From NCBI GenBank assembly GCA_023662905.1, contig JAMPIJ010000002.1:1-64000 (forward strand): DNA of 64,000 nucleotides. The letters run 5' to 3'. Shown here piece by piece: positions 20,629 to 61,192 of this stretch. Position 1 is the stretch's first letter. Every line of letters starts with the position of its first letter. The translations under genes were made by a program, and so were the position numbers. This DNA comes from Fusobacterium sp. (GTDB lineage: Bacteria > Cyanobacteriota > Vampirovibrionia > Gastranaerophilales > Gastranaerophilaceae). A model generated the notes under the pieces. The model was not told the origin of the DNA and made no database searches. It saw only the letters and a program-made list of their open reading frames with translations.

Positions 20629-20658
20629 AGACCTGTCAAGAACAGGTCTTTTCTTTTA
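20629..20658 (+). terminator. Terminator after sdaAA
   Basis: AGACCTGT / ACAGGTCT stem with a 5-nt loop followed by TTTTCTTTT. The 20533-20655 gap holds nothing else recognisable. Confidence 0.8.
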
Positions 20659-21430
20659 TAATAAATTCATCATCCTTAATTTTGCAATTCTTTCACTGAA
20701 AATAGCAGTCAAATCAACAGGTAACCCTAAAAATACTCTATTGTCTTCAGAAAGATTTTTTACAAGATTTTTCACCGAACCAATTCGTTTATTGGTCATA
20801 TTTTGTTCATTTTTGTGAAACATATGCGAAAGCGACGGAGGTGTCTGAGGCTCCTTAGGATTAAGCAGATAATTCAGCGACACCGCCAGATCTGTTCTGT
20901 GAAGTCCTAATAAGCAAGCCATATAGACCCTACCTCTTTCCATAAGTTTGAAAAACTTATCCAAATCTTTCACAAAAACCTCACGGTTTGCTCGAAATTC
21001 CTCAAACGATTCCTTTGAAGTGCCGCGGGGATTAAACATTGACATATTCTCTTTTATTTTAAAGTTGAAATACTCAAGCCCGTTAGCCTCACACTTTCTA
21101 GCGTATTTAGATTCACTGCTTCCCTCTATTCTAAAATCTATAACAGTTTCAATCCCCGACTCTCTGAGTTCATCAAAAACCTGTTTAGGCTTATTAAACA
21201 AACTTTGCCCTCTGACTGAACTGGAATCAACCAGACGAAAATTCTTAATACCTAATTGTTTCATTCTTACAATATCAATAGCGTCCGAATGCCGGATAAA
21301 GGAGTCCCCCCCCCCCGTGCGAAACAGGACGAACGGAAGTTAAGGGGTCTGAAATTTGCCCGCCCTGCTGCGGATTATTTATATTATTCGATTTAAAGGC
21401 CAAAGCTGGCAAAATTTTATTTACAAACAT
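20656..21430 (-). CDS. Tyrosine-phosphatase-like protein with G-tract near its 5' end (frame OFF in this sequence)
   Basis: The body (from the ATG at 21264, 202 aa) looks like a cysteine phosphatase of the DSP/PTP superfamily: RGQSLF near residue 19, GIETVIDFR near 35 and a P-loop-like ACLLGLHRT near 116 that fits CX5R. The frame stays open upstream of that ATG, through a run of 11 G, to codons with no good start. From the ATG at 21430 a different frame runs for about 40 codons into the tract and then stops soon after it. With 10 or 13 G the two parts would join into one protein of about 257 aa. Neither ATG has a clear ribosome site, so the true start is uncertain. Function and target are unknown. 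Confidence 0.6.
21306..21316 (-). repeat. Homopolymer tract, 11 G (phosphatase-like gene)
   Basis: Eleven C on the plus strand. Reading from the ATG at 21430, 11 G leads to an early TGA. Ten or 13 G would join the phosphatase frame. Confidence 0.85.
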
Positions 21431-21465
21431 ACGATAATATAAAATTCAAACATAAAATTTTTTGC

Positions 21466-21471
21466 TATAAT
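21466..21471 (+). promoter_or_regulatory. queF: Extended -10 of queF, probable leaderless transcript
   Basis: TGcTATAAT ends 6 nt before the queF ATG, so transcription should begin at or next to the start codon. No ribosome-binding site is present. Confidence 0.5.
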
Positions 21472-21477
21472 AATTCT

Positions 21478-22377
21478 ATGAACAATTTAACAGAACAAAT
21501 CGCTTCAACACACCTTGGCAAAAAAGTCAACGGTAGTGAACTTTACGACCCGTCATTGCTAGTCGCAATTCCACGGATTGAAAACCGCAAACAATATAAA
21601 ATTGAAAACAACGCGCTTCCATTCAAAGGATGGGATATCTGGCATGCGTACGAATTCTCATCAATGACACAAAACGGAGTTCCTATAACAAGAGTGTTGA
21701 AGCTTAAATACAACTGCGACAGCGAATTTCTGGTAGAATCAAAGTCCTTAAAATTATACCTGAATTCGTTCAATATGAGCCGTTTTGGCGCCAATACAAC
21801 CGAATGTCTAGAGATATGCAAAAAAACAATTCAAAAAGATTTAAGTGAGAAACTTCAAACCGAAGTCTTTGTGGATTTTCTAAACGATAACAGCGCTAAA
21901 TGTGAAATTTTTCAAGATTTTACCAATATTATGGAGTTTGTCGACGAAAGAGGATTAAAAATCGAGAAATTCAAAGAAGCACCGGAATTGCTTGAGGTTG
22001 AAGAAACACCTGAGCCTAATACGTATTATTTAACATTTGACTCATTACGCTCGAATTGCAGAGTAACCCACCAGCCTGATTTCGGTGATGCGTTTATCTA
22101 CTATAAGTCACGCAAACATATTAAAGAAGACAGTCTGATAAAATATCTAAGTTCATTCCGCTCTGAATATCATTTCCACGAAGAATGCTGTGAGATGATT
22201 TACAAACGCATTTTTGACCTCTTGGACGATGAAGATGAGCTTTTTGTCTGCGCACTCTATACAAGACGCGGCGGAATAGATATTTGTCCAACACGTTGGA
22301 GTAAAAATTGTAATATAGAAGACGTGCAAAAATTGCTTGATACCAATAAATACGCACGCAAAAGTATAAAGCAATAA
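21478..22377 (+). CDS. queF: NADPH-dependent 7-cyano-7-deazaguanine reductase
   Basis: Reduces preQ0 to preQ1 for the queuosine modification of tRNA. It is 299 aa, the long two-domain form. Recognisable parts are VESKSLKLYLNSFNMSRFG near residue 84, the catalytic Cys in SNCRVTHQPDFGD near 191, FRSEYHFHEECCEMIYKRI near 222 and YTRRGGIDICPTRW near 261. The start ATG follows a -10 box by 6 nt, so the mRNA is probably leaderless. It is divergent from the phosphatase-like gene. tRNA-Lys is the next gene, 44 nt downstream. Confidence 0.93.
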   Translation: MNNLTEQIASTHLGKKVNGSELYDPSLLVAIPRIENRKQYKIENNALPFKGWDIWHAYEFSSMTQNGVPITRVLKLKYNCDSEFLVESKSLKLYLNSFNMSRFGANTTECLEICKKTIQKDLSEKLQTEVFVDFLNDNSAKCEIFQDFTNIMEFVDERGLKIEKFKEAPELLEVEETPEPNTYYLTFDSLRSNCRVTHQPDFGDAFIYYKSRKHIKEDSLIKYLSSFRSEYHFHEECCEMIYKRIFDLLDDEDELFVCALYTRRGGIDICPTRWSKNCNIEDVQKLLDTNKYARKSIKQ

Positions 22378-34567: not shown

Positions 34568-35565
34568 TTAGCGTCTAACACATCTGACGCGTCCATTACC
34601 GCCTGTACATCCAAGAAGCCATTGACCGGAGCTTAACCGTAAACACCACGCGGTATCTGATGTTGGCTGTATAGGTGCAGACCAAAAATCGCCAACATAA
34701 GTTTCAGAGTCATAATTAAATGTTACCAAATCGCGGTTATAAAATAATGATGCGAGTTCTTCTCTATTCGGCAAACGACTGTCAGAATCAATTGTCGTAC
34801 ATTTTTTGTTAATATTCATAGACATACGAACATCAGAATCTGACGCTGTATCAGCAGTTGTGGCAACAGGTGCCACTAATACGCTATCAGAAGCATATAG
34901 AGCCGTCATTATGCCCATATCTTTACCAAAAGTATTCGGCCCCTTAGAACCGTTCAAGTCATAAACAAAATTCGCACACATTTTTGGCTGCGACCAAAAG
35001 TCTGCACTTTCGTTAAGGTTAGAAGTACAATTCGGGTTATAATAAACCGCAATACTTTCGCCGTTGATAGTTTCAAACGCCGCGGCCTTTGTGTCAAACA
35101 TTACTGAATTACTTGTCATCAAAGGGTTTAACTCACTCATTGTTTTCGGGAACGACCTTGTAGTCCCGTTTAAAAGCGTAATTTTACTCGCCAAGCCACA
35201 ATCAGTCAGGTGATCGCCGTCACAAATATTGTTAATTTTCAAAACTTTTGCAAGCCCGCCGGTGACAAAAGTTTCAGCGGCAGTGTCGACAGCGGAAGCG
35301 GAATCAGTTGCTTCTGTCGTTGTTCCATAACCGTTCAGCGCCGGCATCAGAGCAATTGCCTGTGAAAATCTTGAATAAAGCGCTTTTCGTTGAGTGTTCC
35401 AAGTTCGTTCGTTAATGTTGCCTGTTAGCGACGGCAACGTAATCGCGGCGACAACGCCGATAATTGTGAGGGATAAAAGTATTTCGGCCATTGTGAAGCC
35501 GCGGCTTATGGCCTGCTCAGCAGTCCCCCCCCCCCTGTCCCTGTTAATACAGTTTTGTTGTTCAT
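34568..35565 (-). CDS. Prepilin-like protein, copy 2 (G-tract 11, OFF)
   Basis: A class III-type prepilin with a large C-terminal domain. From the ATG at 35565 (AAAGGA 8 nt upstream) the frame enters 11 G and hits TAA after 19 codons. The pilin frame itself is open for over 300 codons: leader end ISRG, cleavage before FTMAEILLSLTIIGVVAA, then a conserved MCANFVYDLNGSKGPNTFGKD region, and a C-terminal part (SRLPNREELASLFYN, DFWSAP, RVRCVRR) that resembles Lcl_C/DUF1566 lectin-like domains. Adding one G restores the frame. Neighbours are the lytic transglycosylase (convergent) and pth. The mature protein would sit in the inner membrane or in a pilus. Confidence 0.85.
35525..35535 (-). repeat. 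Homopolymer tract, 11 G (prepilin copy 2)
   Basis: Eleven C on the plus strand. Twelve would be in frame, so this copy is one G short. Confidence 0.9.
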
Positions 35566-40881: not shown

Positions 40882-41946
40882 TCAGCGTTTTATACAGCGG
40901 ACATTCAACTTATCACCTCGAGAATACCGAATTTTTCTGCCCGAACCAAGCCCCACAGCATAAGCCGTATTAGCCGATGCCAACGTTGATGACCAAACTC
41001 CGGCCGCAGAATGAAAGTCAAACAAATCCTGATTAATGAATAATACTATCAATTCTTCAATATTCGGCATTCTTGTATCACTATCATACTTTGTACAATA
41101 AGCAGGAGCATTTCTATGTTCTATAAGTTCTTCCGCATTGCGAATAACTGGTACAGGAGCAACGACAACTGTATCTGTCGGATACATAGCACTTATGACA
41201 CCAATATCCTTTCCTACAGTATTAGGCCCCTTATTGCCATTTAAATCATATACAAAGTTTGCACAAATATAGGGCTGGGTAAGCCACCACACATCAGAAC
41301 CGCTCTCTTGATTTAGCGACATAATACAATTAGGATTGTAGAATACTAAAACTGATTCGCCATTCGCCGTTTCAAAAGCGGCAGCTTTGGTATCAAGAGC
41401 GGCATAAGAATATGACAAACTAGTATCTACAGCGTAAGTAAAATACTGATTCAACGTACCAAAAGTATTTGGCATTGACATACTGTTTCCGGCTAAGGTT
41501 GTAATATCAGGTGAAAGTCCGCAATCTTTCAGGTGGTCTGAGTCGCAAATATTGTTAATTTTTAGAACTTTTGCAAGCCCATCCGTGATAAAAGTTTCAG
41601 CGGCGGTATCCTCGGTTACGGACTGAGAACCATCTTCCCCAAATGTTCCTGTAAGTTTTCCGTAACCGTTAAGCGCAGGCATAAGAGAAATCGCCTGTGA
41701 AAACCGCGCATAAAGAGCTTTTCTTTGCGTGTTCCACGTCCGCTCGTTAATGTTGCCAGTTAGCGACGGCAGTGTAATAGCGGCAACTACGCCGATAATT
41801 GTTAATGACAATAAGATTTCTGCCATTGTAAATGCACGGGACTTCGTCCACGCGCTCGGGTTGCAATGGGTGGCTCCCGACTCAGTCGGGCGGCTCAGCA
41901 GGCTCCCCCCCCCCCCTGTCCATGTTAATACAGTTTTGTTGTTCAT
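40882..41946 (-). CDS. Prepilin-like protein, copy 3 (G-tract 12, ON)
   Basis: Full-length in-frame prepilin of 354 aa from the ATG at 41946 (AAAGGA 8 nt upstream). The leader is unusually long, about 34 residues: MNNKTVLTWT, four Gly from the tract, then a Ser/Arg/Thr-rich insert ending in KSRA. Cleavage would fall before FTMAEILLSLTIIGVVAA, so the -1 residue is Ala instead of Gly. The mature part holds PYICANFVYDLNGNKGPNTVGKD and a C-terminal lectin-like region (TRMPNIEELIVLF, WSSTLAS, LNVRCIKR). Its promoter is back-to-back with that of lptC. It is flanked by dnaE downstream. Confidence 0.9.
   Translation of the reverse strand: MNNKTVLTWTGGGGSLLSRPTESGATHCNPSAWTKSRAFTMAEILLSLTIIGVVAAITLPSLTGNINERTWNTQRKALYARFSQAISLMPALNGYGKLTGTFGEDGSQSVTEDTAAETFITDGLAKVLKINNICDSDHLKDCGLSPDITTLAGNSMSMPNTFGTLNQYFTYAVDTSLSYSYAALDTKAAAFETANGESVLVFYNPNCIMSLNQESGSDVWWLTQPYICANFVYDLNGNKGPNTVGKDIGVISAMYPTDTVVVAPVPVIRNAEELIEHRNAPAYCTKYDSDTRMPNIEELIVLFINQDLFDFHSAAGVWSSTLASANTAYAVGLGSGRKIRYSRGDKLNVRCIKR
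41905..41916 (-). repeat. Homopolymer tract, 12 G (prepilin copy 3)
   Basis: Twelve C on the plus strand. The tract encodes four Gly in the leader and keeps the pilin in frame. Confidence 0.9.
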
Positions 41947-50686: not shown

Positions 50687-51675
50687 AGTTGCGTTTTACA
50701 CAAATAACATATCGAGATTTGTCTTTAGCCGTTGGATATTTTATACCTCCATAATATCCAAAGACCCAAGCAGTATCTTTATCTATATTAGTTGATGACC
50801 ACGTAAATCCACCATCCCAATCAAATAATTGTCGATTGTAATACATAGATAACAACTCTTCAATATTAGGCATTCTCGATTCAGAGTCATTGTCTTTGCA
50901 TAATTTACTAGCCTCAGCATATTTCTTGGATTGATTCATAATTTTAGGTTGGAGAGGCATGACAACTACAGAATCCGATGAATAAATTATTGACATTATA
51001 CCAATATCTTTACCAACAGTATTTGGGCCTTTAGAGCCATTCAGGTCAAAAACCATATTTGCACAAACCTGTTGCTTAACATAATTCCCCTGATTTCCTT
51101 CAACATCTTGCCCTTGATAAAGAACATCGGGAGCAGTACAGTTTGGGTTATAGAATGTTAAAATAGATTCGCCGTTCGCAGTCTCAAACGCTGCAGGATT
51201 CGCAACAATCATATTCAACGATGTAGCCTTTTCTAGTAATCCAGAATTCAAATCTGATAACGTCATTGGTAAATCACTTGTGTTGCCACCTAACGTTGTT
51301 ATTTTACTTGCCATACCGCAATCCCAAACATGTTCAGTATCACAGATATTGTTAATTTTTAGAACTTTGGAAAGTCCTGATGTAATAAAGGTTTCGGCAA
51401 CATTATCTACAGCGGAACTGCTTGCGGTTGCAGCAGCAAAAGTTCCATAACCATTCAATGCCGGCATTAGCGCAATTGCTTGCGACATGCGAGCGTATAA
51501 GGCTTTTCGCTGAGTGTTCCAAGTTCGCTCGTTAATGTTACCTGTTAGTGACGGCAGCGTTATCGCTGCAACGACGCCGATAATTGTTAGCGAGAGCAAT
51601 ATCTCTGCCATTGTAAAGCCGGTTAAGGAACTCCCCCCCCCCCCCTGCAAAAATGTTCATAAGTTTGTTTTTCAT
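50685..51675 (-). CDS. Prepilin-like protein, copy 4 (G-tract 13, OFF)
   Basis: From the ATG at 51675 (AGGA 7 nt upstream) the frame reads MKNKLMNIFA, enters 13 G and ends at TAA after 45 codons. The pilin frame is open for over 300 codons: SSLTG, cleavage before FTMAEILLSLTIIGVVAA, then QVCANMVFDLNGSKGPNTVGKD and a C-terminal part with SRMPNIEELLSMYYN, FTWSST and YVICVKRN. One G fewer (12) would join both parts. A TTG just before the tract is in the pilin frame but has no ribosome site, so I do not accept it as start. Its promoter starts at the base after the prs terminator hairpin. Confidence 0.85.
51633..51645 (-). repeat. Homopolymer tract, 13 G (prepilin copy 4)
   Basis: Thirteen C on the plus strand, one more than the in-frame length of 12. 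Confidence 0.9.
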
Positions 51676-60178: not shown

Positions 60179-61192
60179 TCGTTTTACACACCTTACGGAA
60201 TTACCGTGGGTTTTATTTTGAGCAAAAGCATACAAGCCGGTATAAACTACACTCCAATTTAAGGTTGAAGAAACGGTCGAAGATGTCCAATAATGGTTAT
60301 CTGTAGCTGAAAAAGCCGCGAGTCTTTTATTGTAAAAGACTGACATTAATTCTTCAATATTCGGTAACCTCATTTCTGAATCAAAATTACGACATTCTTT
60401 ATTACCACTAGAAACATTATGCATCCCTGAAACATCACGAATTGCAGGATACGGCGCAACAACATGTGAATCTGTAGAATAAAACGCCGTCATAAACCCG
60501 ATATCTTTTCCGACAGTATTCGGCCCTTTGCTTCCGTTCAAATCAAACACAAAATTGACGCACATCATAGGTAAAATTTTATATGTTCCTTCGCCTAATA
60601 ACTGGTTACTACCGCAAGACGGATTATAATACACTAGAATACTTTCACCATTTGCAGTTTCAAACGCTGCAGCCTTTGTGTTAAAAACGGGATAACTAGA
60701 CAACTCTGTACCATCATTATTCGTAAGCGGACAAAAATCATCTAATTCTTCAATATCACTTAAATTAATCGGCCCACCATTAAGTGTTCCGCCATCCATC
60801 GGAGTAATTTTTTCGGGAAGCCCGCAGTCAGTTAAACTCCCCGCCGCGCAGATATTGTTAATTTTCAGAACTTTAGAAAGTCCATTAGTAATAAAAGTTT
60901 CTGCCGCAGTATCGACCGCTGACGCAGAAGATGTCGCATCAGTCGTGGTTCCATAGCCATTCAATGCCGGCATAAGAGAAATTGCCTGCGACATACGAGC
61001 ATATAAGGCTTTTCGCTGCGTGTTCCAAGTTCGCTCGTTAATGTTTCCAGTGAGCGACGGAAGCGTTATCGCCGCAACAACACCGATAATTGTTAATGAT
61101 AATAAAATTTCTGCCATCGTGAATCCGGCAGACAGGCGGCTAAGAAAACTCCCCCCCCCCCCTGCAAAAATGTTCATAAGTTTGTTTTTCAT
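60176..61192 (-). CDS. Prepilin-like protein, copy 5 (G-tract 12, ON)
   Basis: Full-length in-frame prepilin, 338 aa, from the ATG at 61192 with AAAGGA 8 nt upstream. The leader reads MKNKLMNIFA, four Gly from the tract, then SFLSRLSAG. Cleavage is predicted before FTMAEILLSLTIIGVVAA, with Gly at -1 and Glu at +5. The mature part carries paired Cys (NNICAAGSLTDCGL), MMCVNFVFDLNGSKGPNTVGKD and a C-terminal lectin-like region (MRLPNIEELMSVFYN, NHYWTSSTVSS, NSVRCVKR). The protein would be inserted in the inner membrane and assembled into, or at the tip of, a type IV-like pilus. Its -35 box lies within the hairpin that ends the PAP2-like gene. Confidence 0.92.
   Translation of the reverse strand: MKNKLMNIFAGGGGSFLSRLSAGFTMAEILLSLTIIGVVAAITLPSLTGNINERTWNTQRKALYARMSQAISLMPALNGYGTTTDATSSASAVDTAAETFITNGLSKVLKINNICAAGSLTDCGLPEKITPMDGGTLNGGPINLSDIEELDDFCPLTNNDGTELSSYPVFNTKAAAFETANGESILVYYNPSCGSNQLLGEGTYKILPMMCVNFVFDLNGSKGPNTVGKDIGFMTAFYSTDSHVVAPYPAIRDVSGMHNVSSGNKECRNFDSEMRLPNIEELMSVFYNKRLAAFSATDNHYWTSSTVSSTLNWSVVYTGLYAFAQNKTHGNSVRCVKR
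61151..61162 (-). repeat. Homopolymer tract, 12 G (prepilin copy 5)
   Basis: Twelve C on the plus strand, encoding four Gly in the leader; the in-frame length. Confidence 0.9.

Follow-up and report, generated by a model that had tools for sequence, protein, structure and literature searches.

Probable phase variation of a phosphatase-like gene through a G-tract in a relative of Gastranaerophilus

On the minus strand of the DNA analysed here (the window, 64,000 nucleotides at the start of contig JAMPIJ010000002.1), a run of 11 G lies between a short frame with its own ATG and a longer frame encoding a protein that resembles tyrosine phosphatases. This arrangement raises the question of where the phosphatase-like gene begins, at an internal ATG downstream of the tract or at the ATG upstream of it, and hence whether the length of the tract determines if the enzyme is made. 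Our analyses support the upstream start, and we consider it highly probable that the gene is switched on and off by translational phase variation through the G-tract.

Reading frames at the tract and the start of the gene

An earlier note, made from the sequence of the window, had described the ATG at 21430 as opening a 51-codon frame that enters the G11 (C11 on the plus strand) and then stops, and this description proved exact in every detail, with a 51-aa minus-strand ORF starting with MFVNKILPALAFKSN and ending with SHGGGGLLYPAFGRY (Table 1). The frame of the 202-aa ORF, said in the same note to stay open upstream of its first ATG through the 11-G run, is indeed open for 227 codons. When the tract was rewritten in silico to lengths of 8 to 17 G, a single long protein was obtained only at 10, 13 and 16 G (257, 258 and 259 aa, respectively), and all other lengths gave a product of 50-55 aa; the predicted fusion at 10 or 13 G was thus reproduced, with 16 G behaving likewise. 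As in contingency loci, a repeat of hypermutable length is located within the coding region, after the upstream ATG and ahead of the catalytic half, and only one residue class of tract length yields the full protein.

Table 1. Positions of the features at the locus and of the other G-tracts in the window
Feature	Positions	Strand	Basis or remark
Probable leaderless promoter preceding the upstream ATG	21431..21470	-	Sequence; putative function
51-codon frame, upstream ATG through tract to stop; predicted OFF-state product	21275..21430	-	ORF reading and in-silico tract rewriting
N-terminal segment of the full-length protein, 38 codons (MFVNKILPALAFKSN...RPVSH)	21317..21430	-	Family comparison
G11 tract, putative slippage switch	21306..21316	-	Out of phase in the assembly; in phase at 10, 13, 16
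Catalytic half, frame open from tract to stop, 215 codons	20656..21303	-	Homologue alignment, profile matches
202-aa ORF from the internal ATG; Met without conservation beyond G006	20656..21264	-	ORF list, homologues
Divergent neighbour, QueF-type 7-cyano-7-deazaguanine reductase; outside the switch	21478..22377	+	Neighbour annotation
G11-G13 tracts in pilin-like genes	27-38, 35525-35535, 41905-41916, 51633-51645, 61151-61162	-	Window scan

Homologues with a matching upstream part, which the earlier note had anticipated, were found in several relatives. In two lineages the tract is absent and the protein is fused in one frame: in an uncultured Melainabacteria contig (L057, CATLEG010000044, 66% identity), the single frame starts with MFVPKISFSIPLQ and reads into the phosphatase (...SLEH|DVFTHNSEIDINRLKGLD), and in genomes G002 and G003 it runs MRITSLHSFINFRSRE...MKPQ|DTFVRQPHSLNVVQLKILD. 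In Ca. Gastranaerophilus phascolarctosicola Zag_221 (G004, MOYE01000001), both halves are present around a tract, which shares its codon boundary (SH|poly-G|DLFIRQ, compared with SH|poly-G|DSFIRH in the window) and phase rule with that of the window. The full-length product is therefore kept in relatives, contiguously in L057, G002 and G003 and as both halves in G004. The G004 tract is interrupted by NN, like many tracts of that assembly, and in G006 (82% identity) the contig begins exactly at the tract position, its first 52 bases being C in what has the appearance of a sequencing artefact; because one tract is split and the other is hidden at a contig end, neither length is reliable. At the point corresponding to the tract, L057 has CAT-GAT, whose one G agrees with the n = 1 mod 3 rule, and since this single G shares the phase class of 10 and 13, an ancestral G expanded within a linker can be regarded as the source of the tract. 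The tree does not distinguish a single gain of the tract from its loss.

The upstream region also points to the ATG at 21430. An AT-rich -10 sequence (TATATTAT) adjoins this ATG and the motif TAGCAAA lies about 35 nt upstream of it, at a spacing that is equal in the window, G004, G002 and L057, an arrangement that fits a probable leaderless transcript beginning at the ATG itself. A gene beginning instead at the internal ATG (21264), with the tract as an irrelevant upstream feature, would be consistent with the completeness of the 202-aa ORF from that position, with its coverage of the conserved core and with the presence of a Met at the same position in G006. However, this Met is replaced by Leu in L057, G002 and G004, where the frames continue to the upstream ATG; no in-frame ATG, GTG or TTG is present between the tract and 21264; the ribosome-binding sequence preceding 21264 is weak; and the conserved, probable promoter is located at the upstream ATG. 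The earlier note had named homologues beginning at the internal ATG, with nothing conserved upstream, as the observation that would count against its proposal, and the opposite was found. An internal start is accordingly the least probable of the alternatives considered here, and the comparisons support the upstream ATG as the true start of the phosphatase, with the tract setting the frame of a conserved longer protein.

The phosphatase-like protein

The protein is probably a Cys-based phosphatase of the DSP/PTP-like type, as judged from its sequence. Its catalytic half contains a CX5R active-site loop (CLLGLHR, codons 130-136 of that frame), in which C130, G133, R136 and the adjoining T137 are invariant in 13 homologues. 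The window protein matched Y_phosphatase3 (PF13350) at 17.4 bits, below the gathering cut-off of 22.2, and it likewise remained below the curated Pfam gathering cut-offs in general; we therefore call it phosphatase-like. Members of its family matched Y_phosphatase2/3, PTP-NADK, Tc-R-P and DSPc (best E 7e-7), and a family profile search retrieved the DUF442 phosphatase 3gxg at 0.0075. An AlphaFold model built from four sequences was poor (pLDDT 51), its best Foldseek matches being DSP/PTPs with E of 2e-3 or worse. A PDB search with the single sequence gave nothing useful, a search of NCBIfam gave no match, and no relative was found in viral contigs.

With DSP/PTP-like phosphatases (PF13350, PTP-NADK PF22741 and Tc-R-P PF22785), the window protein has in common the CX5R loop and, putatively, the order of secondary-structure elements, and the best profile or fold matches of its family are the DUF442 phosphatase 3gxg, TpbA (4r0s) and PFA-DSP (7mo-series). 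It differs from these known enzymes in its N-terminal segment and its C-terminal region, and belongs to a separate family in Gastranaerophilales. This family is represented in 15 of the 99 relatives, frequently by tandem pairs, and almost every member has an N-terminal extension of 40-100 aa. In the N-terminal segment of the window protein no signal peptide was recognised by eye. A motif picked post hoc, F-[KRTSGE]-[SAGN], occurs in 11 of the 13 family members examined (3.2 in shuffles), and its enrichment was confined to this family. As a genome-wide sorting tag the motif was rejected, since among 52 window ORFs it was present in 9 N-termini and 13 interiors, without enrichment. The suggestion in the earlier note that the enzyme may be host-directed is unsupported by anything we found.

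Several lines of evidence bear on whether the gene is alive. Over the 202 codons, dN/dS was 0.077 against G006 and 0.12-0.15 against L057, G002 and G004. Purifying selection on a half that is out of frame in the assembly, together with the invariant CX5R, suggests a switchable gene and not a relic; such strong selection is what a reversible switch would predict.

G-tracts in the window, the genome and the family

Dinucleotide shuffles put the expected number of runs of at least 9 G at 0.01 per window, whereas six tracts (23 overlapping 9-mers) are present, all reading G on the minus strand. The lengths of G-runs in the window are bimodal, with 72 of length 4, 10 of length 5 and one of length 6, none of 7-10, and then the tracts of 11-13. 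Each of the five tracts other than that of the phosphatase lies between a short leader and a pilin start of the FTMAEILLSLTIIGVVAAITLPSLTG type. In the genome as a whole (G000, 1.74 Mb, congeneric with Gastranaerophilus), tracts of at least 10 G number 108, most of them in leaders of pilin-like genes, directly before G|FTMAEIL. The counts in the other genomes of this genus are 87-127, with G005, which has none, as the exception, and those in the remaining genomes examined from the family are 0 to 124. In G005 (L219-L226), which has no tract of at least 10 G, the pilin leaders consist of few residues and run straight into FTMAEIL. Among the 59 pilin tracts of G000 with a clear start, 22 are in frame (ON) and the other two phases account for 19 and 18, the thirds predicted by unbiased random switching. 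At pilin loci of G000 (for example window 41905, L082, L090, L116, L124 and L132), a 3' module AGCCTGCTGAGCCGCCCGACT... is found behind different leaders, and the same leaders also precede different 3' modules, a pattern resembling recombination between pilin leader and body with the tract as the joint.

About ten non-pilin genes, plus some promoters, also carry tracts in G000. In addition to the phosphatase, the carriers include an RHS-repeat protein (L061), a multi-HTH protein (L118), a glucosaminidase/transglycosylase-like protein (L129), a phosphoribosyltransferase-like protein adjoining an N-run (L147) and a protein resembling, by eye, family-2 glycosyltransferases (L110), with several further carriers unclassified. 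Three of the nine non-pilin genes with two clear halves are in frame (the set being the phosphatase, L061, L062, L098, L110, L111, L118, L129 and L140). L067 and L086 were discounted as probable misassemblies across N-runs. In four promoter regions (L083, L088, L089 and L107), tracts reading C on the coding strand lie either a short way before a start codon or between sequences that may be promoter elements, and transcriptional phase variation is possible there. The non-pilin carriers and promoter tracts together indicate switching beyond pilins, in agreement with the earlier note, which had suggested that the switch was not limited to them.

The tracts have sequence features in common. In G000 (L059-L148), 41 of the 64 pilin tracts and 8 of the 18 non-pilin ones have CTNANCNG within 18 nt on their 3' side; in G002/G003 (L149-L218), 36 of 45 pilin and 13 of 23 non-pilin tracts do so, compared with 0 or 1 at control positions. 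The motif occurs in different frames, in promoters and in antisense, whatever the gene or strand, and T never precedes a tract, the preceding base being A in 101 cases and C in 67. In two genomes from other genera of the family (G027 and G046, L238-L267), G-tracts number in the tens and are followed by constant 3' sequences of their own, CACAGGCSTAGTCTCCTTTT and TAACGAACCTCAAGGGAGACAAGGG. The frame-independent flank, the biased preceding base and the constant flanks of other genera suggest that an element was copied, and not that the runs lengthened independently. We would extend this only tentatively to the view that the tracts of the genus are copies of one element (A/C, G10-17, 2-6 nt, CTNANCNG) placed in frames, promoters and antisense, perhaps with a dedicated mechanism that spreads them or maintains their length, and that well over 100 genes, enzymes included, may be independently and stochastically switched. 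The flank of the phosphatase tract, ACTCCTTTATCCGGC, is one mismatch from CTNANCNG and was considered as a copy of the shared element, but the stretch aligns as protein with relatives lacking the tract (DSFIRH with DTFVRQ and DVFTHN), so descent as coding sequence explains it better.

Length differences and disturbed assemblies were found at the tracts. Between near-orthologous tracts of the sister species G002 and G003, with flanks about 95% identical, the lengths were 13 and 14 in two cases and 12 and 15 in one. By our own count, 25 of the 100 listed tracts of G000 are no more than 100 bp away from the end of a contig, compared with about 0.6 expected, an excess that heterogeneity of tract length or sequencing failure would produce. 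Assemblies also break or gain NN at tracts (L056, positions 1-52, with 52 C at a contig start; L004/L058, G6NNG13), and tract lengths in the public genomes of this group are therefore probably misreported.

The proposed switch and its relation to known systems

In the mechanism that we propose, transcription would start from the probably leaderless promoter at 21430, and slipped-strand mispairing during replication would alter the length of the tract. Lengths of 1 mod 3 (10, 13, 16) would give the full enzyme, a protein of about 258 aa with a 38-residue N-terminal segment, a short tract-encoded Gly linker and a Cys-based phosphatase domain, and other lengths would lead to a translation stop about 9-12 codons past the tract and a peptide of 50-55 aa. 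The assembly, with 11 G, may thus be the record of an OFF cell line, at a locus that would belong to a genome-wide set of about 108 tracts acting chiefly on pilin-like genes. We infer the slippage at this locus, the OFF product, the phosphatase activity and any population-level role; one genome per species, in assembled form, was compared at the locus.

Two further explanations were weighed against this switch. Long homopolymers are known slippage sites, and slippage of RNA polymerase or the ribosome on the G11 might yield some full-length enzyme at every tract length, as the retention of open halves on both sides of the tract would allow; DNA-level length differences between near-orthologues nevertheless exist, and expression slippage, which we regard as unlikely, would supplement and not replace switching in the DNA. 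Somewhat less likely still, the gene may be a frameshifted pseudogene, or the 11 G a sequencing or assembly miscount of a fixed in-frame tract. Short reads are error-prone at homopolymers of such length, so that the count of 11 is possibly off by one, and the assemblies of G004 and G006 show visible disturbance at the equivalent tract, but a dN/dS of 0.08 and an intact active site speak against decay. A miscount, moreover, would leave the switch in place, since the contig breaks at tracts fit length heterogeneity and the tracts of the genome occupy all three phases.

The proposed mechanism would be that of the contingency genes of Campylobacter and Neisseria, by analogy with their loci: the G-tract lies in the 5' part of the frame, ON and OFF depend on length modulo 3, homologues exist with and without the tract, and many loci are present per genome. 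In Campylobacter, tracts of 7-8 G or more are hypermutable. The present case differs from these genera in its host, a Gastranaerophilus relative within the Vampirovibrionia/Melainabacteria, and in the gene, a phosphatase, and from Campylobacter also in the number and length of its tracts, approximately 108 of 10-16 G, most of which lie in pilin genes and which have a common 3' flank motif. For Campylobacter jejuni, the median number of poly-G tracts per genome is 20, mostly of 9-10 G and mostly with G on the coding strand (PMC6321876). According to another report, the gut commensal Bifidobacterium breve has phase-variable pilus expression, by a slippage ON/OFF switch like that proposed here, in another phylum and with another pilus type (PMC9187656). 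In the open-access literature, we found no report of phase variation for Gastranaerophilales/Melainabacteria and no phase-variable poly-G tyrosine phosphatase.

If the proposed switch is correct, a regulatory-type enzyme, besides surface pilins, would be under stochastic genetic switching, and this in an uncultured gut lineage neighbouring the Cyanobacteria whose long G-tracts per genome exceed those of the standard Campylobacter example. With the enzyme in an unbroken frame, the sister species that lack the tract would provide a natural comparison for the capture of a gene by a phase-variation system.
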